Below, piece by piece: positions 7,929 to 19,107 of a stretch of 32,066 bases of DNA (position 1 is its first letter; the number at the start of each line of letters is the position of its first letter). This DNA is from Candidatus Zhuqueibacterota bacterium (GTDB lineage Bacteria; Zhuqueibacterota; Zhuqueibacteria; Residuimicrobiales; Residuimicrobiaceae), in the NCBI GenBank assembly GCA_963169875.1, contig CAUJEL010000133.1:1-32066 (forward strand), read 5' to 3'. The position numbers and the translations under genes were made by a program. A model generated the notes under the pieces. It was not told the origin of the DNA, did no database searches, and saw only the letters and a list, made by a program, of their open reading frames with translations.

Positions 7929-7941
7929 AAAATTTGCAGCA

Positions 7942-8040
7942 CGACATTAACCCGGGTGTTAAGCCAGAGCAGTCCTAGACCATAATCCCCGGAACCACCC
8001 CATATGACATCAACCCGGGTGCTGCATCTGAGCAATCACA
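7942..8040. repeat. Short direct repeat pair around CCCGGGT
   Basis: GACATTAACCCGGGTGTTAA (from 7942) and GACATCAACCCGGGTGCTGC (from 8003) are related, and the similarity continues into GCCAGAGCAGTC versus TCTGAGCAATC. No gene is seen in the whole 7579-8097 gap; it holds this pair and the two larger repeats. Confidence 0.6.
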
Positions 8041-8097
8041 TCCGGCTATAGTTGCCCCCCTCGCATCCCGTTCATTCAAACCATTCTCAGATCGCAA

Positions 8098-9324
8098 TCA
8101 ACCGCAGCCGCCCTGGCGCTTGACCACTTTGGTCACCTTGACTTTGGGCGTGAATTCGCCGAGACTGCGCAGCAGCTTTTCATCCGGAAAAGCCGCGGGA
8201 TGACGCGCCCCCAGCGCGGCGCTGAAAGCATGGTCGAGCCGGTCGCCGGGTTCTTCCTGCCGCGTGACCGAAGCAGCGCCCGCAGGGTCAAAAGTCGCCA
8301 GCCAGCGATTGAGTCCGCCGCCGAGGATATAGACATTGGGGATTTCCTGCATGGTCACCAGCTTCCAGGCATGCGTCGCCGCCGCCTCGTCGTTGCCGGT
8401 GATGACAATGACCTGGTTGGCTGTTGGATCGATGCCTGTGGCGGTGATGTTGCGCAGGGTGCTCTCCTCCATGCGTTGCGCTGTTTTCAGGTGAAAGAGG
8501 TTATAGTCGCGCTCCGGCCGCACATCCCAGATGACCAGGCCGCGGGTGTCGTCGTGCATCAGGCTGAGCATCTCCGCGGGCTCGATATAGATCGCGCGCT
8601 GATCCAGCAAAGGCTGTTTCTCCGGACCCGCAATCTGCCATTTTTTCTCAAGCGTGGGCTGGCCCGTGAAGGCCGTGACCAGGGCCAGCAGCAGCAATCC
8701 GGCCGCGGCGCCATAACGCCATTTAGGTTCCCGTTTTAAATCCCTGCCCCCGAAGATGCGCTCGAGCTGCTCGCCGCCCCAGAACATCCCCACCGCCATG
8801 AGCACGACGCCAACGACGACCGCACCGGCGGGAATCCCGAAGAAATCGAAAAGGGTTACCCGTCCGAAAAACGACGAATGCCAGTACCCGTCAAAAAGCG
8901 AGACCGTCTCCCCGAACATAAAAATACCGAAAAGACCACCGAGCACAAAGAACAGGCCATCCAGTTTGAAAGTGGCCATACCCACCAGCGATGTGCCGGG
9001 GCAAAATCCGCCGATGATAAAACCCGCGCCCATGATCAGTCCGCCGACGATGCCCGGCCACAGATAAGTGGGATTGACGTAGAGCTTGCTATAGTCCAGA
9101 AGCCCCAGGCTGGCGGCCAGAAAGATCAGCACCATGGCGGTGATGATGGCCGTAAACATGACCTTGAGCACGGTGAGTTCCTTGAAGTAAAACTGGGCGG
9201 CCAGTTTGGTCGATTTGCCGAAGCCGGACAGCTCCAGCGCGATGCCGAAACCGAGCCCGAGCGCGAAATAGACGGCCATCATGCCCCAATAGCCCAAAAG
9301 AGACTGCAGTTGAAAAGGCGCCAT
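8098..9324 (-). CDS. YeeE/YedE-type sulfur transporter half fused to a cysteine-less rhodanese domain
   Basis: The 408-residue protein has an N-terminal membrane part (about 1-220) with the YeeE/YedE signature GGFCPGTSLVG; C108 is the only cysteine there. In the family member TsuA such cysteines carry thiosulfate through the membrane. Residues 235-345 form a rhodanese domain (LVIWDVRPERDYNLFHLKTA; NVYILGGGLNRW), but the active-site loop that should begin with cysteine reads ITGNDEAAA (308-316). Persulfide transfer by the usual cysteine is therefore not possible. The protein ends RQGGCG, giving a cysteine two residues from the C-terminus. ATG 9324 has AGGAG seven bases upstream. It follows the other YeeE half by eight bases and is the last gene of the multiheme operon. 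Confidence 0.85.
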   Translation of the reverse strand: MAPFQLQSLLGYWGMMAVYFALGLGFGIALELSGFGKSTKLAAQFYFKELTVLKVMFTAIITAMVLIFLAASLGLLDYSKLYVNPTYLWPGIVGGLIMGAGFIIGGFCPGTSLVGMATFKLDGLFFVLGGLFGIFMFGETVSLFDGYWHSSFFGRVTLFDFFGIPAGAVVVGVVLMAVGMFWGGEQLERIFGGRDLKREPKWRYGAAAGLLLLALVTAFTGQPTLEKKWQIAGPEKQPLLDQRAIYIEPAEMLSLMHDDTRGLVIWDVRPERDYNLFHLKTAQRMEESTLRNITATGIDPTANQVIVITGNDEAAATHAWKLVTMQEIPNVYILGGGLNRWLATFDPAGAASVTRQEEPGDRLDHAFSAALGARHPAAFPDEKLLRSLGEFTPKVKVTKVVKRQGGCG

Positions 9325-9332
9325 AGGTTCTC

Positions 9333-9866
9333 CTAATTCCATGCCTTGCGTAAAAACCAGGCCAGCGCATAAGCGCCGGCAAAGACCGCGAACATAAAGA
9401 CCCAGCTGCCGGCGGAGAGCACAGCACCGCCTGAGAGAGCCTGCCCCGAGGTGCAACCGCGGGCGAAGCGGGCGCCATAGCCCATGATGGCGCCGCCCGC
9501 AAAGGCCAGGATCCAGCGGGTTTTGTTCGAGATGTTGGGCCCCTTGTTGGTCTCCACCTTGAGGCGCCGGTTGAAGAGTCCGCTGAGAAATCCGCCAAGG
9601 ATGGTGCCCGCGACCATCGGGATGATCCAGGCGTCCAGGGGGTTGAGATCGCCGCCGGCCATTTCCAGCAGATAGGGCGTGCGGTCCACATGGCCGGGCA
9701 CGATCAGGTCCTCAAAAAAGACGATGATGCGGTTCAGTCCGCCCGAAGCACCCAGACCATTGCCGCTGAGAAAGAATGAGAGAAAGAGGACGCATCCCAG
9801 CAGGATTCCGCCGGCATAGGGATGAATATAGGGTTTCGGGCCTTTTTGCGCACGTGTTTCAGCCAT
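9333..9866 (-). CDS. YeeE/YedE-family membrane protein (short, half-transporter)
   Basis: The 177-residue protein has about five hydrophobic segments and the family motif GYGARFARGCTSGQALSGG (129-147) with C138; another cysteine (C25) lies in the first helix. Full YeeE/YedE thiosulfate transporters are roughly 350 residues with two such cysteine motifs. Here one motif is on this protein and the other on the next gene product, so the two probably pair as a split transporter (inference, as in other two-gene YedE systems). AGGAGG precedes the ATG, which directly abuts the stop of the cytochrome gene. The likely cargo is thiosulfate, sulfide or another reduced sulfur species. Confidence 0.85.
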   Translation of the reverse strand: MAETRAQKGPKPYIHPYAGGILLGCVLFLSFFLSGNGLGASGGLNRIIVFFEDLIVPGHVDRTPYLLEMAGGDLNPLDAWIIPMVAGTILGGFLSGLFNRRLKVETNKGPNISNKTRWILAFAGGAIMGYGARFARGCTSGQALSGGAVLSAGSWVFMFAVFAGAYALAWFLRKAWN

Positions 9867-12116
9867 TTATTTTTCCTCCTGATGAACGGCCACCTTTTCC
9901 CATCCCGAGATCATGGCTTTGATGTTCGCCAGCGGGGTATGGCCGGTGGTGGTCAGATAGATGTGCAATATCAGAAAAGCAGCGAAGAACCAGGCCAGCA
10001 GACTGTGTGCCGGGACGAGAAAACCGAGTCCGCCCAGACTGGCCGAAAGGTCCGGCCAGATCTGCGCTCCGGCGATGAGAATGCCGCTGACGATCTGCAG
10101 TGGCAGCAGTAGATTGAGGATGACCAGATAGGTGATCTTTTGCAGCGGATTGAGTTTTTTCTGCAGGCTCTTTTCGAAGGGATGGGGTTCCCCCTTGAAA
10201 ATGCCACCGAGATAATAACGTCCTTGCGAATACATCTGGCTGAAAAATCCGCTGGACTCGGGCAGATAGGTCTTGATTTTGCCGCTGGCAAAGTGATAGA
10301 AAAGCGAAAGAAAGGCGTTGAAGAGCAGCAAGCCGGCCAGCACATTGTGAATGCGCACAGCCGCGGCGAAGGAGAGCCAGGCGAACCGCCCCGGCGCATG
10401 AATGGTGAGGCCGGTGAAGATGAGGCCGACGATGACAATGGCCTGCAGCCAGTGCCAGTAACGTTCGTAAACCTCGTACATGTAGACCAGCTGCGTCGGC
10501 CCCTCCCCCGCTCTCTTGCGTTTGTTGGCGCGAATGCGCAGATAAGCGTGTAACACAATACCGGCCAGGGTGAGAAGGAGCACAGCGCTCCCCAATATAT
10601 GCACCCAGGCGACACGGGTGTGGCCGAGCAGGTAAAAGCCCGCCATCTCCGGACTGGGATTAAAGTACAGCTCGCCCGCGCGCGCAGTGATCTGACCGGC
10701 CGGCAGTACGCCTGTTTGCGCTTGCCACAGAAGCGGCATGGCGCCGGGCCGCTCCGTTCCGAGCGGCAGCGCGGCGCTGAGCATCGAATTCCGGTCATGA
10801 CAAGTCTGACAGTCGCGCACGACGTATTCGCCATGCGCAATGGTATGATGAATGCCATAGGGCTGCACCTCGCCGCGGAGACGGCTCGCCCCATCCGCTT
10901 CCTTGTCATCTCGCTCCCAGGTGGTGATCAAGTTAAAAGGAGCCAGACGCACGCGGCCGTCGCGTTCCGCACGCGGCAGGATGACCGGCTGGAATCCGCC
11001 GGCCAGGTGATGGACCGCATCCGCCGAGCCATCGCCGCCGCGGTAGCGGATGACCGCTTCATCGCCGCTGAGATCGACGACCGATGCGGCCGGGACGTAC
11101 AGGCGCGGAATGTGGCAGGTTTCACAGGTCAGGCTGTTGGCGTGCCGGGCCTTGAAGGGCAGCCAGTCGTGGGTCTTGTTGTAATCATGGCATCCCTCGC
11201 AGCGCCGCATCGGCGCAGCGGCGCCGGGCAGGTCCGGCGCATCAGCGGCCGTGCTGCCGGCGAGGATGTGACTGGGCCGGTGCAGATATTCGCGTATGTC
11301 GAGCCGCCGCGGCGAGTAGGCGAGATGATCGGGCTGATTGGCCGGATCGGCCTGCTGATGGGCGGGATTGTTGAGCGCGAAATGGCAGCTCACGCAGTCA
11401 AGGAGCCGCTCGCTGTGAACGTCCCAGGGACGATTGAGCTCCTGTTTGCCGGCGAGATTGAGGCCGCTCTCGCGGATGCGTTGGGGTGAGAACACCTGCC
11501 CGGTGGTGAAAGTGCTCCACAGCTCCGGCGCTCCGGACTCGAAGACCAGCGGTATCTTGTTCTGGGTGTGCACCTGGCCGTGGCAGTATCCGCACTGTTC
11601 ATTTTTGGGATCCTGCATCTGGGCGTACGCGGGAAGCAGCTCGCCCGCGGCATTGAAGGCGCTGCGCTGATACTGCCAAGCCGCGCCGCTTTTGACGACG
11701 ATGCCGCTGCCTTCAAGGGTCGCGGTGACAGCCCAGTCGCTGCGTCCGTCGCTCAGGGCCTCCAGGCGCGCCCGGTTGTTGGGCTGCTGAAAATGGCAGA
11801 GGAAGCAATTCATGGCGTCAGCCGACGCCTGGCCGGCCGCTACGGTTTGCGCGCTATGTTTCAGCCGCGAAAACGGTGGCCCGTAGAGCTCCGTCTGACT
11901 GGCATGGCCGCGGGTGCTATTGGCGATGATATAGCCGGCGTCATGGCACTGGCCGCAGGTGCGGACAGCGCTGATCGCATTGCCGCTTTTCAGGACATGG
12001 CCGCCGGTTTCGTCGAGCAATGGAAAGAGCGGGTGCATGGTTTGCGCCCACCCGGCCGGTGCCAGGCAGGTAATCAATAGCCCAAAAGTGAGGAGAATAA
12101 AGAAGGTCCGTCTCAT
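9867..12116 (-). CDS. Heptaheme c-type cytochrome fused to cytochrome b561-type membrane domain
   Basis: The 749-residue protein starts with a signal peptide (residues 1-25, ending GWAQ). Seven CXXCH haem c sites follow: CGQCH 54, CFLCH 104, CGYCH 175, CVSCH 241, CEGCH 306, CETCH 331 and CQTCH 436. After a membrane helix near 502-525 comes a cytochrome b561/Ni-Fe-hydrogenase-b-like domain with about four helices. Candidate haem b ligands are H555 (YWHW), H590, H704 and H718. Such a fusion would pass electrons between the quinone pool and periplasmic haems on one polypeptide. It lies between the octaheme cytochrome gene (22 bases away) and the transporter genes, so it is the obvious electron donor or acceptor for the octaheme protein. 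The start has AGGA nine bases upstream. Confidence 0.9.
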   Translation of the reverse strand: MRRTFFILLTFGLLITCLAPAGWAQTMHPLFPLLDETGGHVLKSGNAISAVRTCGQCHDAGYIIANSTRGHASQTELYGPPFSRLKHSAQTVAAGQASADAMNCFLCHFQQPNNRARLEALSDGRSDWAVTATLEGSGIVVKSGAAWQYQRSAFNAAGELLPAYAQMQDPKNEQCGYCHGQVHTQNKIPLVFESGAPELWSTFTTGQVFSPQRIRESGLNLAGKQELNRPWDVHSERLLDCVSCHFALNNPAHQQADPANQPDHLAYSPRRLDIREYLHRPSHILAGSTAADAPDLPGAAAPMRRCEGCHDYNKTHDWLPFKARHANSLTCETCHIPRLYVPAASVVDLSGDEAVIRYRGGDGSADAVHHLAGGFQPVILPRAERDGRVRLAPFNLITTWERDDKEADGASRLRGEVQPYGIHHTIAHGEYVVRDCQTCHDRNSMLSAALPLGTERPGAMPLLWQAQTGVLPAGQITARAGELYFNPSPEMAGFYLLGHTRVAWVHILGSAVLLLTLAGIVLHAYLRIRANKRKRAGEGPTQLVYMYEVYERYWHWLQAIVIVGLIFTGLTIHAPGRFAWLSFAAAVRIHNVLAGLLLFNAFLSLFYHFASGKIKTYLPESSGFFSQMYSQGRYYLGGIFKGEPHPFEKSLQKKLNPLQKITYLVILNLLLPLQIVSGILIAGAQIWPDLSASLGGLGFLVPAHSLLAWFFAAFLILHIYLTTTGHTPLANIKAMISGWEKVAVHQEEK

Positions 12117-12138
12117 AGAAAAAATCCTGATTGTTAGC

Positions 12139-13563
12139 CTAGAGTTTGCGGCTCCCGTAGGTCAGGGGATCGCCGGGATAGCCCAACTGGATCCAGTCCA
12201 GCCGTTTTTCGCCCTCGCCGTGACAACTGCTGCACTGCAGGGCTTTATCTTTGGTCGCCACCATATGGGTGAGGGTCCAATACATCTCGGTGTCGGCAAA
12301 ACCATACTGGCCGCTGTAGGCCATTCCAGCCGCTTCCGAGCCGATGCGCGCGGCCGTATCCCAGTCGAACTTGCTCCAAAAGCCATCGGGACCGGCCGTG
12401 TTGGGCTGGATGAGATAATTGAATTTGGCGTCATAGATCTGCCGGGCGCGGTGGATCTTGAAGGGCATGATTCTGGCCTTGGGATCGCGGATATCACCAT
12501 TGGGATGATTCAAATCGGTGATGCCATTGGGATCGATGCGGTCGCCGAGCAAATAGTGTTCGCTGGTGCAGTTATACCAGCGGTATTCCGGGATGATGTT
12601 CTTTTCCCAGGTGAAGCGGCCCTTGATCTTGAGATATTCGTGCTCATCCTCAGGGAGATCCTGGCCGGCCTGGGACCAGTCCCAGTGGGTCTTGGTCCCT
12701 TCCTTGACCGCGCCGTAGGGGACGTGGCAAGTCGGACAACCGACGCTGGCGACATGGCGGTTGATGCGTTCGTCCTGGTGCAGGGTTTCCGTGTGGCAGT
12801 CGGTGCAGTGGACCTGGCCGGTGTCGGTTTGGCTGATGCAGAAGGCGCGGCCGCGGATGTCGTGCTCCGAGGTCTTGTGGCAATCGGTGCAAATGAATTG
12901 ATGCCGGCCCATATGGGCGTCGATTTCTTCACTGGGAAAATAGAGGCTGCCGTCGAGATCGCCATGTTTGACAGCATCGCCGCCGCCGCCGCGGAAATGG
13001 CAGCCGCCGCAGTTTTCGCGCGTCGGATTACCGACGCTGCGGGCGGAAGCGAGGAGGTCTACGCCTTTTTCGGGCAGGCCGCTGTCACCTTTGATGTACT
13101 GGCCGCTGCGGTCGTGACAGACGAGGCAATCGACGAGTTCCTGGTTGGAAAAGTCAAAATCGGCGTCGCTCCAGCCATAGCCGGCGTGGCAGGCGGTACA
13201 GGGGGGCCAGTTTGACTGGATGCCGATGCAGAAATTATTGATGGCGTTCTTTTTGCCGAGCCGCACCGGTTCCGGCCGGTTGGCGACCCGGAAGGGTTGG
13301 CTCTCCCAGGTCCAGTGCGAGGTCTTCATGATATCCCGGGCCGCATTTGGATGGCATTCGAGGCAAGCGAGCGTCACCTCGCTGCCGCTGCTGAAAGGCC
13401 CTTTGAGCAGATGGGTGTGGTCGGTTTTGTTCTTGTGCGCCTTCACGTACGACCAGGGATCATCGGAGGGGGATGAATCGCCGGGCCGCAGCAGCCACAC
13501 GGGCAGCGCGATGGAAGCCAGTACCAAAGCGATGAGAAAATAGGTTGATTTTTTCCGCGGCAT
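12139..13563 (-). CDS. Octaheme c-type cytochrome, tetrathionate reductase (OTR) family
   Basis: The 474-residue protein has an N-terminal signal/anchor helix (6-25) and eight CXXCH sites: CLECH 67, CTACH 122, CLVCH 146, CGGCH 185, CTDCH 225, CTDCH 253, CPTCH 276 and CSSCH 444. The stretch NNFCIGIQSNWPPCTACHAG followed by VDCLVCHD is characteristic of the octaheme tetrathionate reductase family (Shewanella OTR). OTR reduces tetrathionate, nitrite and hydroxylamine in vitro; its physiological substrate is not settled. The adjacent b561-linked cytochrome and two sulfur-transporter genes favour a sulfur oxyanion here (inference). It is the first gene of the operon; GGAGA lies seven bases before the ATG. 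Confidence 0.92.
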   Translation of the reverse strand: MPRKKSTYFLIALVLASIALPVWLLRPGDSSPSDDPWSYVKAHKNKTDHTHLLKGPFSSGSEVTLACLECHPNAARDIMKTSHWTWESQPFRVANRPEPVRLGKKNAINNFCIGIQSNWPPCTACHAGYGWSDADFDFSNQELVDCLVCHDRSGQYIKGDSGLPEKGVDLLASARSVGNPTRENCGGCHFRGGGGDAVKHGDLDGSLYFPSEEIDAHMGRHQFICTDCHKTSEHDIRGRAFCISQTDTGQVHCTDCHTETLHQDERINRHVASVGCPTCHVPYGAVKEGTKTHWDWSQAGQDLPEDEHEYLKIKGRFTWEKNIIPEYRWYNCTSEHYLLGDRIDPNGITDLNHPNGDIRDPKARIMPFKIHRARQIYDAKFNYLIQPNTAGPDGFWSKFDWDTAARIGSEAAGMAYSGQYGFADTEMYWTLTHMVATKDKALQCSSCHGEGEKRLDWIQLGYPGDPLTYGSRKL

Positions 13564-13631
13564 GGTGCATTCTCCACTGCAAAGCGGGTGAGCGGAATCG
13601 AAAAGTCCGATTGAAATGATTAAGGTTGAAT

Positions 13632-13660
13632 AATCTAAGGATAAGAAAGGAATTTTTCAA
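13632..13660 (-). promoter_or_regulatory. Candidate sigma70-type promoter of the octaheme operon
   Basis: On the minus strand, TTGAAA (13660-13655) and TAGATT (13637-13632) are separated by 17 bases and end about 70 bases before the octaheme start. This is a sequence match only; FCB bacteria may use different box sequences. Confidence 0.35.
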
Positions 13661-13850
13661 CCACTTTTCCGGACTGAACAATGCAAAGCCAATATTGCAG
13701 AGATACGCAACATGCCGCTCTCCCCCTTCTGGCCTCATTGCGGTTTAGGCATGGAACAGGCCAATGCGTGGCCGTCTGGAGATAGCGGCGATCTGGCGCA
13801 GTCGTGCAGCTGTCTCTGCCGGGCCGTGATTCCGAAGCGCGATGTGCATG

Positions 13851-14020: not shown

Positions 14021-15430
14021 CTAGAGGCCCGCGGGCTGGCGGCTCAGATCGATGCGGCGCTGGCCGGGATCGGCGAGCCGCAGCACCAGCTGTCCGAGCT
14101 GGTTGTAGATTTTAATAGACCGGACGCGCATATCCTCGCGCAGCGTGAATGCGACCACGCCGTCAGACGGATTGGGCCAGACCGGCACCGCGACTTCCAG
14201 CTCCGGCGAGACCGGAAACACGATCTCATCCACCGTGGTCTGCAGACCGGTCCATTGGGCGGTGGTGGTGTCGAAGCGCTGCACCGCTTTTTGCGTCAGG
14301 CTGTAGCGGTATTGGCTATTGTCCACGATGGTATCGCCATTGGCCTCAATACTGGAAATGCCGCCGTTGACATAAAACAACGTATCGGAGCCGGTGATAT
14401 CCACCGTAAGGGCGCCTTGCGAAATAGGCGGCAGGTTGTTCGCCAGCACCCGGCCGTAGAGTCCGCCGTTTTTTGCAGTGATGGCGCAGAGGTCGCCGCG
14501 GATTTCCTCACCCTGTGGTGCAGCGCCTTTTTGCAGCACGAGATAGCCGCTGCCGCCCCAGATGAACAGCGAATGGCCCTCTTGCGCAAACGCGGCGTTG
14601 GAGCGCGACGGGATGTGCGCGCCCTGGATGGGCGGCCCCCAGCCAAAGCTTTTGGCGGTCAGATCATAGACATAATTATCGAACTGCGGCCCCGACTGGT
14701 TACTTCCGCCGAAAAAGTGCACTTTCTCTGCTTCGGCATCATAGAGGGCGGCATGGCCATAGAGCGCCCGCGGCGTAGAACCGCGGTTTTCGATGGTCAC
14801 GCCATCCTTGTCCAGTGTGGCGACAAAAAGCTCGTTCGATATCTGGCCGGTGTGGACGTCGATGCCGCCGTGAAAGACCGCGGTTCCGGTCAGCTCACCG
14901 GCTGGACCGCTTGGCGAAAAATCCACCGCCGCGGCCATCTGGCCATGGCCGTAAAATTTGTGGACGCCGAGCTGGCGCCACTGGTTGCTGCGGATGTTGT
15001 ACATATAGACGCTGCTGTCGCCGTTGGCATTGCGGCCGCCGAAACAGTACATAAAGCCATCCAGCTTGTTCTGCAGCGCAACGTGCCCGGCCATGGGGGG
15101 CACCTTGGTCCAGGTTTCGTCGTAGGGTTTTAGCTGAACCCATTCGTGGGTGCGGCGATTGTATTTCCAGACCTCGGGCGAGCGTTCGAGCACGGTATAT
15201 TTTTTGAATGTCTGATATTGACCGGTGCCGGTCTGGACGCTGTAGACGATCTCTTCGGTTTTAAAACCGCCGAGCATGATCTCCACAAAGTCACCGTTTT
15301 CCTCGAAAACCGTTGTGGTGTGCGCATAAAAATTTTCCGGCCGCTGCGCCTGGACATGCACGGCAGCAGCCAACATAACCAATACCAGACAGTTCAACAC
15401 ATGTTTGCAAATACGGTTCTTCATTTCCAT
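14021..15430 (-). CDS. Secreted Kelch-type beta-propeller protein with truncated C-terminal sorting domain
   Basis: The 469-residue product has a signal peptide (VLVMLAAAVHVQA, cleavage likely before Q29). Its body consists of Kelch-like blades, for example GFMYCFGGRNANGD followed by VYMYNIRSNQWRQLG, and KVHFFGGSNQSG. The end has VWPNPSDGVVAFTLREDM and SIKIYNQLGQLVLRL, the start of a type IX-like (Por) sorting domain, but the gene stops at an amber codon before the last strand. It may be poorly anchored or secreted if the stop is real. The ATG at 15430 is chosen because AGGAGG lies six bases upstream; the next ATG at 15424 is possible. No enzymatic role is visible; Kelch propellers usually bind partners or glycans. 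Confidence 0.85.
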   Translation of the reverse strand: MEMKNRICKHVLNCLVLVMLAAAVHVQAQRPENFYAHTTTVFEENGDFVEIMLGGFKTEEIVYSVQTGTGQYQTFKKYTVLERSPEVWKYNRRTHEWVQLKPYDETWTKVPPMAGHVALQNKLDGFMYCFGGRNANGDSSVYMYNIRSNQWRQLGVHKFYGHGQMAAAVDFSPSGPAGELTGTAVFHGGIDVHTGQISNELFVATLDKDGVTIENRGSTPRALYGHAALYDAEAEKVHFFGGSNQSGPQFDNYVYDLTAKSFGWGPPIQGAHIPSRSNAAFAQEGHSLFIWGGSGYLVLQKGAAPQGEEIRGDLCAITAKNGGLYGRVLANNLPPISQGALTVDITGSDTLFYVNGGISSIEANGDTIVDNSQYRYSLTQKAVQRFDTTTAQWTGLQTTVDEIVFPVSPELEVAVPVWPNPSDGVVAFTLREDMRVRSIKIYNQLGQLVLRLADPGQRRIDLSRQPAGL

Positions 15431-15486
15431 GCAGTTCCTCCTCATAGCTGTTCCATGCCGGAGCGATTGATTTCTTTTCCTTAAAA

Positions 15487-15577
15487 TCCGCTATAGCGGA
15501 CGTTTGTTTTTAGACAGCGGTTCAATCCGTCTTTTTGGGATGATCACATTGTATATCTCAAAATCCGCTATAACGGA
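15487..15577. promoter_or_regulatory. Pair of TCCGCTATAGCGGA-type dyads upstream of Kelch gene
   Basis: TCCGCTATAGCGGA (15487-15500) is a perfect palindrome and TCCGCTATAACGGA (15564-15577) is a one-mismatch copy. Both lie in AAAATCCGCTATA-CGGAC contexts 77 bases apart, 57 and 134 bases before the Kelch start. They could be operators or a dispersed repeat. Confidence 0.5.
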
Positions 15578-15626
15578 CCCTTGTTTCCTGACTCCGCCTG
15601 CAATTATTCCCGCAGGCCATCTGGCC

Positions 15627-18600
15627 CTATTTCAGCAGCAGCATCCGGCGGATCTGTTTGAAAGACCCGGCCTTGAAGGTGCAGAAATAGAGTCCCGACG
15701 GATTTTTCCCCGCCTCCCAGGTGACCTGATGCACGCCGGCTCCCAGCCTGCCATCCACAACCACCGCCACCTCCTGCCCCAGCACGTTGTGGATCGAAAC
15801 CGTGACATGCTCTGCGCACGGCAGCGCAAAAGAGAGAGTCGTGCCCGCGTTGAACGGATTGGGGTAATTGGGCAGCAGGGCGTATGCTTCCGGCGCGCCC
15901 GCGCTCTTGTCGCGCACGGAGGTGTAGAGATTGTTTTTAATTTGCAGGATGCCGCGGAACTTGTCGAGGACAAAGATATGCTCCTTGTGCACCGCCACAT
16001 CGATCAGATCGATGTCCGTTCTGTAAAACCGCGATGCCAGCAGCGGCGCCGCTGGATCGCTGAAATCGAGCAGATTCAATCCATACCAGCCGCCGGCCAC
16101 GTAGAGATAACGCCCATCCGCGCGCAAGGCAGTGCCGTAGATCATGTTGTTGTAAATGCCGGCTGCGACCGGAGCGGCGGGATTGCTGATATCGACAGCC
16201 CTGATTTTTTTGCTGCCATAGCGGCTGCCCAGATAGAGATACTCGCCGGACAGCGTCATATCGTCGATGGAGACATCGTCGCTGAAGCTGCCGGCCTCGC
16301 GCGGGTTGGCGGGATCAGAGATATCCAGGACGCGCAGCACCTTGCCATCGTTGACAAAGGCGTGGCCCCCCTTGAGCAGAATCCGGGCGCGATTGGCGGC
16401 ATTGCCGACCGGTAGCACCCCCAACAGCACGGCCTGAGGCTGGCTGATATCATAGACCCGGAGTGCACCGTTGGACCCGTTATAGTTGGAAGAACGAATG
16501 TAGGCGCGCGCACCGTCGATGGTGAAACCGCGGATCTGAAAATCGCCCAGGGACCAGGTGGCGAGGATATCCAGATCATCGGCGTGTAAATCAATTTTGT
16601 GCAGATGGCCGAAAGAGGTTTCCGCTATATAACCATCGCGCCCGGCGATCTGCAGCCCCGCCAGCGCTGTGCTGTTATGATCCTTGAAAAGACGGGCGCC
16701 GGCCATGACCAGCGTCCCGGGGGCGCGTCTGAACCGGTGCAAGGTCGCCTGATTGTCGATCAGATAGACATGGATTTCATCGGCCTCGATATCCTCATTG
16801 GCCGCGGTGCAGCGCACATCGCCCAGCAGCGTCGTGCTCGCCTGGTTGCTGACATCGGTGACATAGACCTCCTTGTTCAACGTCGGCCGGATAAAATAGG
16901 GCGGATAGTAAAGGGCGCCCAGATAATTGTCCACGCGCTGCATCTCGCTGAGTTTGCGCCACTGGCGCATATCCGAGACGTCGTAGGTGACGAAATAGCC
17001 GCCCGGGCAATAGGCCGTGTTGCCGGCGAAAACGGGTGCGGCAAAAAAGGGCTGATAAAAGGCGGAGATGCGAACGGGACGGGTGGGTTGCGCCAGATCA
17101 AAGATGATCACGCTGTCCTGGGTGGTATTGGCGATGCCGTAGTGGCCGTGAATGCTGAAAGAAAGCGCCTCCTGACCGGGGAGCATCACAGCGGATTTGT
17201 TCGCCGCCGTGGTATCGGCGATATCAAGGCAATAGAGTTCTCCCGCCACGGTTAAAGTATTTGGCTGGGCGATGCAGTAAACCGCATCTCCTCTGGCGCC
17301 AAAGACGCGCACCGGGGTCTCGGTTTCAATGAATGCGAGTCTCTGCGGTGTGCGCGGATCCGCCAGATGAAACAAGTCGAATCCATGCAGAGTGGCGCCG
17401 CTGGACCAGGTGAACAGCGAATCGCCCTGCTTCAGCAGATAGTTCTTGGTACCGGAGAGTCCGATCCTGCTCTCCTCGGCAGGATTGTGGATGTCGTCGA
17501 GATTGGTGGTGACCAGAAAAGGATTGCCAAAACCATCCTGGGTTGTATGATAAACATAGGGGGCGTCAAAAACGTATTCATCCAGGTAGACCTCGGCCGA
17601 GTCGGCCAGCCGGGGATGGAGGACATCCTCGACCTCATAGAGGCGCAGTTTGCCGTTGCCGAACGGCGGAAAGGCCATGAAGCCGTTGACCATGAAGGGC
17701 GCTTTCAGGACCTTGTCGGAGATCCATTTGCCGTATTGGGCCGGCTTGGCCGGATTGCTGACGTTGAAGGTGCTGAAGCCGAAATCGCTGACCGCGGCAT
17801 AGACCACACCGGGCCGCACCGCCACGCCGACGGCGCTCCGCGAATAGCAGTTGGAGAGTTTTTTCAGCGCCGCATCGCCGAGATCGTGGAGATCGATGCC
17901 CGAGGATGTAGTGTTGACCAGATAGGCGATGTTATCCTGAAAAGCGGCATCTACCACCGTGCCGTTCAGGGTGGTGATCTCTTTGGGGTGCTGGATATCG
18001 CTGAAATCCGTCACCCGCACGTCATTGGGGCCGCAGATAAAGACCGTGCGTCCGCAGGCAGCCACATGATAGACAGTATAGCCGCCGGCATGGTTGAGCA
18101 CTTTGGCGGGCGCCGCCGGATTGGTCACATCGACGACGCAGAGGCCGGCTGTGTTACAGGCGAGGAAGGCCCAGGGGCCGTCCAGCGCCACATCGTCCAC
18201 CCAATCCTCGGGTTTGTAATTCGTCACGGTTTTCGGCGCGGTGGGCTGACTGATGTCCACAATGCGCAGGCCGGAACCGCTGGTCGCGATATAGGCGTGA
18301 TTGTCCTTTATGGCAACTTTGGCGGCATAGACATCCCCGACCGCGGCGCTCAGACGCAGGTACGCGGGATTGGAGATGTCCAGGATCAGCAGTCCCGCCT
18401 CGGCGGCCGCGACGTAGGCGTAGTGGCCGGCGATGACGATATTGCGGACGTAACCGGATGTTGAGAATTGGTCAAGTGCGGCAAACGTGCGCGCATGGAA
18501 GGCTGAAACGAATCCGCCGTGGCCAAGAAAAATCACGCTGTCCGTGACGCTGATGGCGGTGGCCGGTCCGCCGGGCCATTGCGCCGTGAGTTCGAGATCG

Positions 18601-18677
18601 GCCGCCTGCAGGGAGAACATTGCGACGAAAACAGCCATTGTCAAGCATACAGTGTATACAAACCCCTTGTTATTCAT
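15627..18677 (-). CDS. Secreted LVIVD-repeat beta-propeller protein with C-terminal sorting domain
   Basis: The 1016-residue protein begins with a signal peptide (MNNKGFVYTVCLTMAVFVAM, ending near LQA). It contains many LVIVD repeats with the pattern AYVAxxxxGLxIxDISNPAxP, such as GLLILDISNPAYL, GLRIVDISQPTAP and GLCVVDVTNPAAP. About residues 930-1016 form a sorting-type domain: LLPNYPNPFNAGTTLSFALP, VSIHNVLGQEVAVVVDG and NPSGLYFCTFKAGSFKQIRRMLLLK. LVIVD proteins are surface or secreted propellers of unknown ligand; the C-terminal domain suggests type IX-like export and surface attachment. ATG 18677 is preferred because AGGGG stands six bases upstream and the signal peptide begins there. The neighbouring Kelch gene lies downstream on the same strand after about 200 bases. 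Confidence 0.9.
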   Translation of the reverse strand: MNNKGFVYTVCLTMAVFVAMFSLQAADLELTAQWPGGPATAISVTDSVIFLGHGGFVSAFHARTFAALDQFSTSGYVRNIVIAGHYAYVAAAEAGLLILDISNPAYLRLSAAVGDVYAAKVAIKDNHAYIATSGSGLRIVDISQPTAPKTVTNYKPEDWVDDVALDGPWAFLACNTAGLCVVDVTNPAAPAKVLNHAGGYTVYHVAACGRTVFICGPNDVRVTDFSDIQHPKEITTLNGTVVDAAFQDNIAYLVNTTSSGIDLHDLGDAALKKLSNCYSRSAVGVAVRPGVVYAAVSDFGFSTFNVSNPAKPAQYGKWISDKVLKAPFMVNGFMAFPPFGNGKLRLYEVEDVLHPRLADSAEVYLDEYVFDAPYVYHTTQDGFGNPFLVTTNLDDIHNPAEESRIGLSGTKNYLLKQGDSLFTWSSGATLHGFDLFHLADPRTPQRLAFIETETPVRVFGARGDAVYCIAQPNTLTVAGELYCLDIADTTAANKSAVMLPGQEALSFSIHGHYGIANTTQDSVIIFDLAQPTRPVRISAFYQPFFAAPVFAGNTAYCPGGYFVTYDVSDMRQWRKLSEMQRVDNYLGALYYPPYFIRPTLNKEVYVTDVSNQASTTLLGDVRCTAANEDIEADEIHVYLIDNQATLHRFRRAPGTLVMAGARLFKDHNSTALAGLQIAGRDGYIAETSFGHLHKIDLHADDLDILATWSLGDFQIRGFTIDGARAYIRSSNYNGSNGALRVYDISQPQAVLLGVLPVGNAANRARILLKGGHAFVNDGKVLRVLDISDPANPREAGSFSDDVSIDDMTLSGEYLYLGSRYGSKKIRAVDISNPAAPVAAGIYNNMIYGTALRADGRYLYVAGGWYGLNLLDFSDPAAPLLASRFYRTDIDLIDVAVHKEHIFVLDKFRGILQIKNNLYTSVRDKSAGAPEAYALLPNYPNPFNAGTTLSFALPCAEHVTVSIHNVLGQEVAVVVDGRLGAGVHQVTWEAGKNPSGLYFCTFKAGSFKQIRRMLLLK

Positions 18678-19107
18678 GATCGCCCCTTTCCTGGATTCGG
18701 GATGTTCCTCACTGGCGCGGAGGAAGCATCGGCACAAGAATGAGAACTGCTTCTGGAGATGTCCGTGCAGTTGATTTTTTTATCAAATAATTTACAAATT
18801 ATTGAAAAAAAGAAAAAGAAAATCAATTTGAATGAGAGATTTAGGCGAAGGCTATCTTGCGGGGCACAGAGCGACGCAGGCTGATTCGAATTCACCCATG
18901 ATCAGGGGGCCATGGCATTGGTGGGCGCGTCCCCAGGGACTGCGCATGGGTGGCGATAAAAAAAGCGATCGTTGAGAGGGGGGGTGAAACGAATAAATCC
19001 TTGAAGGAAAAACGACAGGGTGCGCGCGGTAGAGGTCTCTGACGCGATTTTTTGCATAGACCGGAGCAGGGGGGCGTGATCGATAACATCAGCGTGGGTA
19101 TGGCATA
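18678..19107. other. Intergenic region, promoter side of the LVIVD gene
   Basis: No gene is recognised. An AT-rich tract contains the dyad AATAATTT-AC-AAATTATT (18786-18803), about 110 bases before the LVIVD start, which may be part of its promoter or an operator. The frames open across 18900-19276 show no family I recognise and no convincing ribosome site. Confidence 0.45.

Follow-up and report, generated by a model that had tools for sequence, protein, structure and literature searches.

A conserved octaheme cytochrome cassette with a candidate sulfur-carrying arm on a YeeE transporter

Gene content of the cassette

Four adjacent minus-strand genes in a 32,066-nucleotide stretch of DNA from a Candidatus Zhuqueibacterota bacterium (the window; contig CAUJEL010000133.1) form a cassette that, by its gene order, which recurs far above chance, is a conserved functional unit. 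We are somewhat inclined to read it as a periplasmic sulfur oxidoreductase that is linked to quinones and has a dedicated sulfur carrier and importer. The parts, their order and conservation, a C-terminal tail and the topology pattern can all be read from the sequences themselves. The features are as follows:

12139..13563, minus strand: OTR gene, 474 aa, octaheme cytochrome c family
9867..12116, minus strand: fusion gene, 749 aa, seven-haem periplasmic domain and b-type membrane domain with quinone site
9333..9866, minus strand: YeeE half 1 gene, 177 aa, YeeE/PmpA-like C-terminal half
8098..9324, minus strand: YeeE half 2 + rhodanese gene, 408 aa, YeeE/PmpB-like N-terminal half, non-catalytic rhodanese and GGCG tail
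8101..8112, minus strand: GGCG tail codons (Cys407), proposed sulfur-carrying arm, from conservation of the Cys in relatives

The genes are transcribed in the order OTR, fusion, YeeE half 1, YeeE half 2 + rhodanese, with gaps of 22, 0 and 8 bases. A sequence-only reading that preceded this analysis had described these four genes, their single minus-strand run and the three gaps, and all were confirmed in the window. The last gene starts with the ATG at 9324, and the mechanical ORF reaching 9456 is an upstream extension. Upstream of the cassette, at 14021-18737 on the minus strand, the window encodes secreted Kelch-repeat and LVIVD-repeat proteins with Por-type C-terminal sorting domains, which are apparently unrelated.

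The first protein is a member of the OTR family, as had been supposed: it scores 552.8 bits against TIGR04315 (cut-off 375), contains eight CxxCH motifs and aligns end to end with Shewanella OTR (1SP3; E 2.8e-150), and its N-terminus is a membrane anchor or signal. Cys112 (in NNFC) and Lys199 (in VKHGD) are invariant in all 156 aligned OTRs, and we take Lys199 to be the lysine that ligates the catalytic haem in 1SP3. The second protein carries seven CxxCH motifs and a PF01292 b-type domain, which bears out the proposed fusion. Its b-type domain best matches the thiosulfate reductase cytochrome b model PRK15006 at 138 bits, under that model's cut-off, and resembles FdnI and HyaC in the AF2 model. 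In the fold search the b-type domain alone was matched, and no match was obtained with the seven-haem domain (AF2 model, haems absent). A natural fusion of OTR with the seven-haem domain, 971 residues long and with 15 haems, occurs in L114. A second OTR-type protein (737 aa, 15 haems, C-terminal membrane anchor) is encoded at L065:5119-7332, on an Anaerolineales contig that also has a full cassette.

Both remaining proteins contain PF04143, and the second also PF00581, in agreement with the predicted two YeeE halves, one with a rhodanese. These two families are the only Pfam matches above cut-off in YeeE half 2 + rhodanese, and the SoxY fold (PF13501) is absent from it. In half 1 the GCTSG cysteine 138 is invariant in the alignment, and half 2 has six membrane helices and an invariant channel Cys108. 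Profile matches of the halves include the TsuA entries 8J4C and 6LEO, and half 1 aligns with 8J4C 239-328. The Sulf_transp fold and the two indispensable cysteines (Cys138, Cys108) expected of YeeE/YedE transporters are thus both present. As in PmpA/PmpB and SoxT1A/TsuA, there are two halves, each with one invariant cysteine, at the positions of TsuA Cys293 and Cys91 (PMC11582611). Unlike in these systems, one cassette half adds two membrane helices, a dead rhodanese and the GGCG arm, and the cassette pair shares an operon with OTR.

Conservation and distribution

In the home phylum, OTR above the TIGR04315 cut-off was found in 13 of 82 genomes, and the full four-gene order in 9 of the 82, including one cassette split over two contigs and one whose last gene is truncated. 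Two further genomes of the phylum contain a variant: its b-type protein lacks the haem domain, and in its YeeE protein no homologous rhodanese part can be recognised. Among the best 80 OTR loci of the genome collection, YeeE halves adjoin OTR in about 57, and most of the 64 loci nearest to the window have the four-gene order, most exceptions being short contigs that do not reach as far as the YeeE genes. Loci rather than species are counted here, as some genomes are represented twice. The sequence-only reading had left conservation of gene order to be checked, and the order is kept in both sets. By their titles, cassette loci belong to Chloroflexota, Calditrichota/KSB1, Lysobacterales (Gammaproteobacteria), Planctomycetota, Gemmatimonadota, Neomarinimicrobiota, Krumholzibacteriia and Deltaproteobacteria, nearly all from metagenome-assembled genomes. 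The cassette is absent from the Shewanella and Desulfuromonadales loci within the best 80.

In the OTR tree, 78 rows bearing the cassette or the fusion fall within one 82-row clade (local support 98); the other four rows are three cut contigs and L119, which has YeeE genes in a different order. The rhodanese-tail domain (E < 1e-30) was detected in 11 of the 82 home-phylum genomes, and these 11 all belong to the 15 genomes in which OTR is complete or partial (hypergeometric p ~1e-10). Fusions of YE1, YE2 and rhodanese, which ORF lengths suggested in L103 and L106, were rejected as overlapping frames.

Recurring neighbour families of the cassette that we looked at are mostly regulators; the YTD sulfur-disproportionation cluster, for its part, consists of YedE with TusA- and DsrE-like genes. 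Of 84 cassette loci, 39 have an ArsR-family gene just upstream of OTR (for example L200:843-1259), in many cases sharing a few bases with the OTR gene, while the window locus has none. A two-Cys sulfane sensor was considered for this ArsR protein and is unsupported, as it has a single conserved Cys.

A dead rhodanese with a conserved GGCG arm

The sequence-only reading correctly recognised a rhodanese domain and a transporter pair, but it mentioned neither the lost catalytic Cys nor the GGCG arm, by which the same protein would also be a sulfur carrier facing OTR. The rhodanese fold is retained, and the catalytic loop Cys of active sulfurtransferases is missing in the window and in all 59 aligned relatives, where an SNDE-type loop is found instead; sulfur transfer by the rhodanese itself was dropped for this reason. 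Across the 59 relatives, channel Cys108 and the GGCG tail Cys are the only widely conserved cysteines. The tail Cys is present in 56 of them, two others read TGA in its place and the last is truncated at a contig end, so every complete relative keeps the residue as Cys or TGA. Among 1,559 chosen ORFs from 127 loci of the first surveys, 71 end in GGC plus at most three residues; all 71 are YeeE-rhodanese proteins, and the tail occurs in none of the approximately 1,488 other ORFs. No tail-bearing partner was found at Shewanella-type OTR loci.

In the AF2 model of YeeE-rhodanese (pLDDT 83), six long membrane helices are followed by the rhodanese domain and a disordered tail. The mean Lys/Arg numbers in 42 relatives are 0.0, 2.5, 0.3, 1.1, 1.1 and 3.8 for the N-terminus and loops 1-5, and loop 4 shows an acidic excess in the same relatives. 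From these alternating charges, the N-terminus, rhodanese and tail would be placed outside, beside the haem domains. TsuA has nine helices and a cytoplasmic TsuB partner (PMC11582611), which is fused in entry 8J4C, and this helix count and TsuB side likewise suggest an outside N-terminus, agreeing with the charge pattern of the cassette. The rhodanese and the GGCG arm therefore appear to lie in the periplasm with OTR. Like SoxY, whose GGCGG arm is loaded with thiosulfate by SoxAX, the protein would hold a C-terminal Gly-Gly-Cys arm near a periplasmic c-type haem redox enzyme; unlike SoxY, its arm is carried by a membrane transporter with a rhodanese fold rather than by SoxYZ, and SoxAX is absent. 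From its sequence, YeeE-rhodanese is a candidate carrier that would work like SoxY but belongs to another family. The tail could also be a metal ligand or a regulatory thiol.

Candidate selenocysteine in the tail

TGA codons occur in the tails of three YeeE-rhodanese relatives (L054:11429, L090:15840 and L214:7833). In L054 and L090 the sequence is GGG-TGA-GGC-stop, with TGA replacing the Cys codon, and in L214, which was found in the Neomarinimicrobiota survey, TGA is likewise followed by Gly and a stop. Downstream of the TGA, all three have a hairpin of 6-7 bp, closed by a loop of three bases, whose start lies 16 nt from the T, and between L090 and L214 three of its six base pairs are changed on both sides. 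SelB was found in all three TGA-tail genomes and tRNA-Sec in both of the two tested. The folding z-scores of the hairpin are modest (-1.8 and -1.6), the minimum-energy fold of L214 favours an alternative pairing, and the Rfam search with these SECIS-like hairpins returned no match. A 2026 selenoproteome review includes selenoproteins of the OTR and YeeE kinds, as well as rhodanese forms whose motifs differ, and the GGCG-type selenocysteine tail is absent from it (PMC13188914). Selenocysteine is likely encoded at the tail position in L054, L090 and L214, while the window itself has Cys.

Neighbours of other OTRs

The earlier reading would have been in difficulty if OTR neighbours in related genomes were unrelated to sulfur genes, and this is not what we found, either in the cassette or beyond it: OTR lies beside SoxY and a triple rhodanese in L287, beside SoxY in L285, and beside a full YeeE and a triple rhodanese in L262. 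In two gammaproteobacterial loci SoxY is at most 40 bases from OTR, and soxY also adjoins otr in lucinid symbionts (PMC11237559). Gammaproteobacterial OTR is usually paired with an unfused b-type protein. In six gammaproteobacterial loci (L258, L259, L264, L265, L267 and L271) a DUF302 protein is encoded directly upstream of OTR, and in all six the glycine-rich C-terminal tail closes with GGC or SGC. Within the stretch read, no tail-bearing neighbour was present in 27 of 35 gammaproteobacterial OTR loci.

Shewanella OTR (1SP3, TIGR04315) is homologous to the cassette protein over its full length and keeps the eight CxxCH motifs, the Lys and the extra Cys; at its loci, by contrast, a mono-haem cytochrome and a DUF3373 protein take the place of the fusion and the YeeE pair, and there is no arm. 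Conversely, L304 (G027:C39:9000-25171) contains at 7931-13732 a PhsA/PsrA-like molybdoenzyme, an Fe-S protein and NrfD, then YeeE halves, together with a separate periplasmic rhodanese that lacks the catalytic Cys and ends in EEGC. This Phs/Psr-type operon resembles the cassette in the order of the YeeE halves and in a dead rhodanese with a terminal Cys, whereas in its redox part OTR and the fusion are replaced by the PhsA-like Mo enzyme, the Fe-S protein and NrfD. In L304 the carrier module would thus be attached to a different redox enzyme.

Proposed mechanism and alternatives

How the parts would form a complex, with what chemistry and in which direction, we infer as follows. The second YeeE protein would extend its dead rhodanese domain and flexible GGCG arm into the periplasm, where the arm cysteine could bind thiosulfate or sulfane sulfur and bring it to the active-site region of OTR with its lysine and cysteine. 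Two electrons would be exchanged between OTR and the arm-bound sulfur. Linking OTR with the quinone pool, in either direction, would be the seven-haem domain, which brings the c-haems of the path to 15, and the b-type cytochrome, while the arm would pass sulfur to, or receive it from, the channel of the two YeeE halves. In an oxidative version, the arm would be loaded in a SoxAX-like manner with quinone as acceptor, and the sulfur then imported. Transfer from the SoxY cysteine to the YeeE-like SoxT1 has been proposed (PMC11582611); unlike in Sox, electrons of the cassette can reach quinone through a b-type cytochrome. The earlier notion of a quinone-linked sulfur module holds in that the cassette is conserved, sulfur-related and linked to quinone through this cytochrome.

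The carrier-arm reading draws on the gene order across phyla, the cassette clade of the OTR tree, the restriction of the rhodanese-tail protein to OTR genomes, the kept tail, the TGA tails, the dead rhodanese, the loop charges, the L114 fusion and the DUF302 and SoxY neighbours of other OTRs. Weighed against it are the nitrite and hydroxylamine activity of OTR (PMC4484225), the armless Shewanella loci, the 27 of 35 tail-less gammaproteobacterial loci and the origin of nearly all cassette loci in metagenome-assembled genomes. A dependence on the Sox system was dropped, since a SoxY match was found in just 3 of 40 searched genomes. A wider claim, to which we give a little under an even chance, is that OTRs are at heart redox enzymes for sulfur held on C-terminal Gly-Gly-Cys arms of three unrelated folds (rhodanese-YeeE, DUF302 and SoxY; convergent) and, jointly, that the cassette is a Sox-independent, quinone-linked thiosulfate/sulfane-sulfur pathway with the arm built into the importer and a selenocysteine arm in some lineages.

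As to direction, we lean slightly to oxidation. A heme-copper oxidase (COX1-family) gene was found in 34 of the 40 searched genomes, nearly all of them cassette carriers, where the COX1 family includes NO reductases and the single match of the window genome is weak; SoxY/OTR neighbours in sulfur oxidisers point the same way, while the b-type relatives and the in vitro activity of OTR lean to reduction. Reduction, with tetrathionate as an example of a substrate, was the suggestion of the sequence-only reading; given these COX1-family genes, oxidation is at least as plausible. A quinol-driven reductase of tetrathionate (or polysulfide or sulfite) would act on the free oxyanion at OTR, with YeeE importing the thiosulfate product and the tail serving only as a scavenging or docking thiol. 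OTR does reduce tetrathionate in vitro (PMC4484225), the fusion b-domain is nearest to thiosulfate reductase cytochrome b, and L304 joins a PhsA/PsrA-like operon to a related YeeE pair and a dead rhodanese ending in GC. We nevertheless hold this alternative to be unlikely, because it sits poorly with the oxidase-family genes in 34 of 40 genomes, growth tests of Otr-bearing Caldithrix failed to reveal the respiration of sulfur compounds that had been predicted (PMC5317091), and the strict retention of the tail and the likely replacement of its Cys by selenocysteine would be left unexplained.

Sulfur sensing or assimilation, in which arm and channel supply small amounts of sulfur for signalling (SoxT1B-like) or cysteine synthesis and OTR keeps the arm thiol reduced, seems improbable to us. 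The ArsR-family gene directly upstream in 39 of 84 cassette loci would suit it, as this regulator type is linked to the YeeE-like SoxT1B in Hyphomicrobium (PMC11582611; PMC10451225). But 15 c-haems and a quinone site would be a high price for signalling, the cassette ArsR has one conserved Cys where SqrR/SoxR have a pair (PMC10451225), and the window locus lacks this regulator. It is very improbable that OTR serves nitrite or hydroxylamine detoxification or respiration with the YeeE genes as a linked but separate assimilatory unit: although Shewanella OTR reduces both compounds in vitro and interacts with the shuttle STC (PMC4484225), the cassette co-occurs strictly in a fixed gene order, and SoxY, rhodanese and YeeE genes repeatedly adjoin OTR.

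Each part of the cassette is already known, and the combination, as a set, appears to be new. In the open-access literature we found no report of YeeE with a GGC tail or in one operon with OTR, of a YeeE half bearing a dead rhodanese and a SoxY-like arm, or of recurrent C-terminal Gly-Gly-Cys arms beside OTR. The structure of OTR reportedly dates from 2004, and its role is said to have been open since, with substrates guessed from in vitro tests. If the reading of the arm as a partner of OTR is true, it suggests what an 'octaheme tetrathionate reductase' is for, and a conserved arm that must meet OTR makes this role testable by one mutation. It would also tie a carrier arm physically to a YeeE channel, a step proposed but unproven for SoxY to SoxT1 (PMC11582611), and it hints that a sulfur pathway exists in groups such as Anaerolineae, Calditrichota/KSB1 and Planctomycetota, where SoxY is missing from most of the searched genomes. 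In three other loci (L257, L260 and L263), OTR and a b-type cytochrome lie beside five-haem, separate eight-haem and four-haem cytochromes, and these possibly represent an extracellular or nitrogen-related OTR branch.
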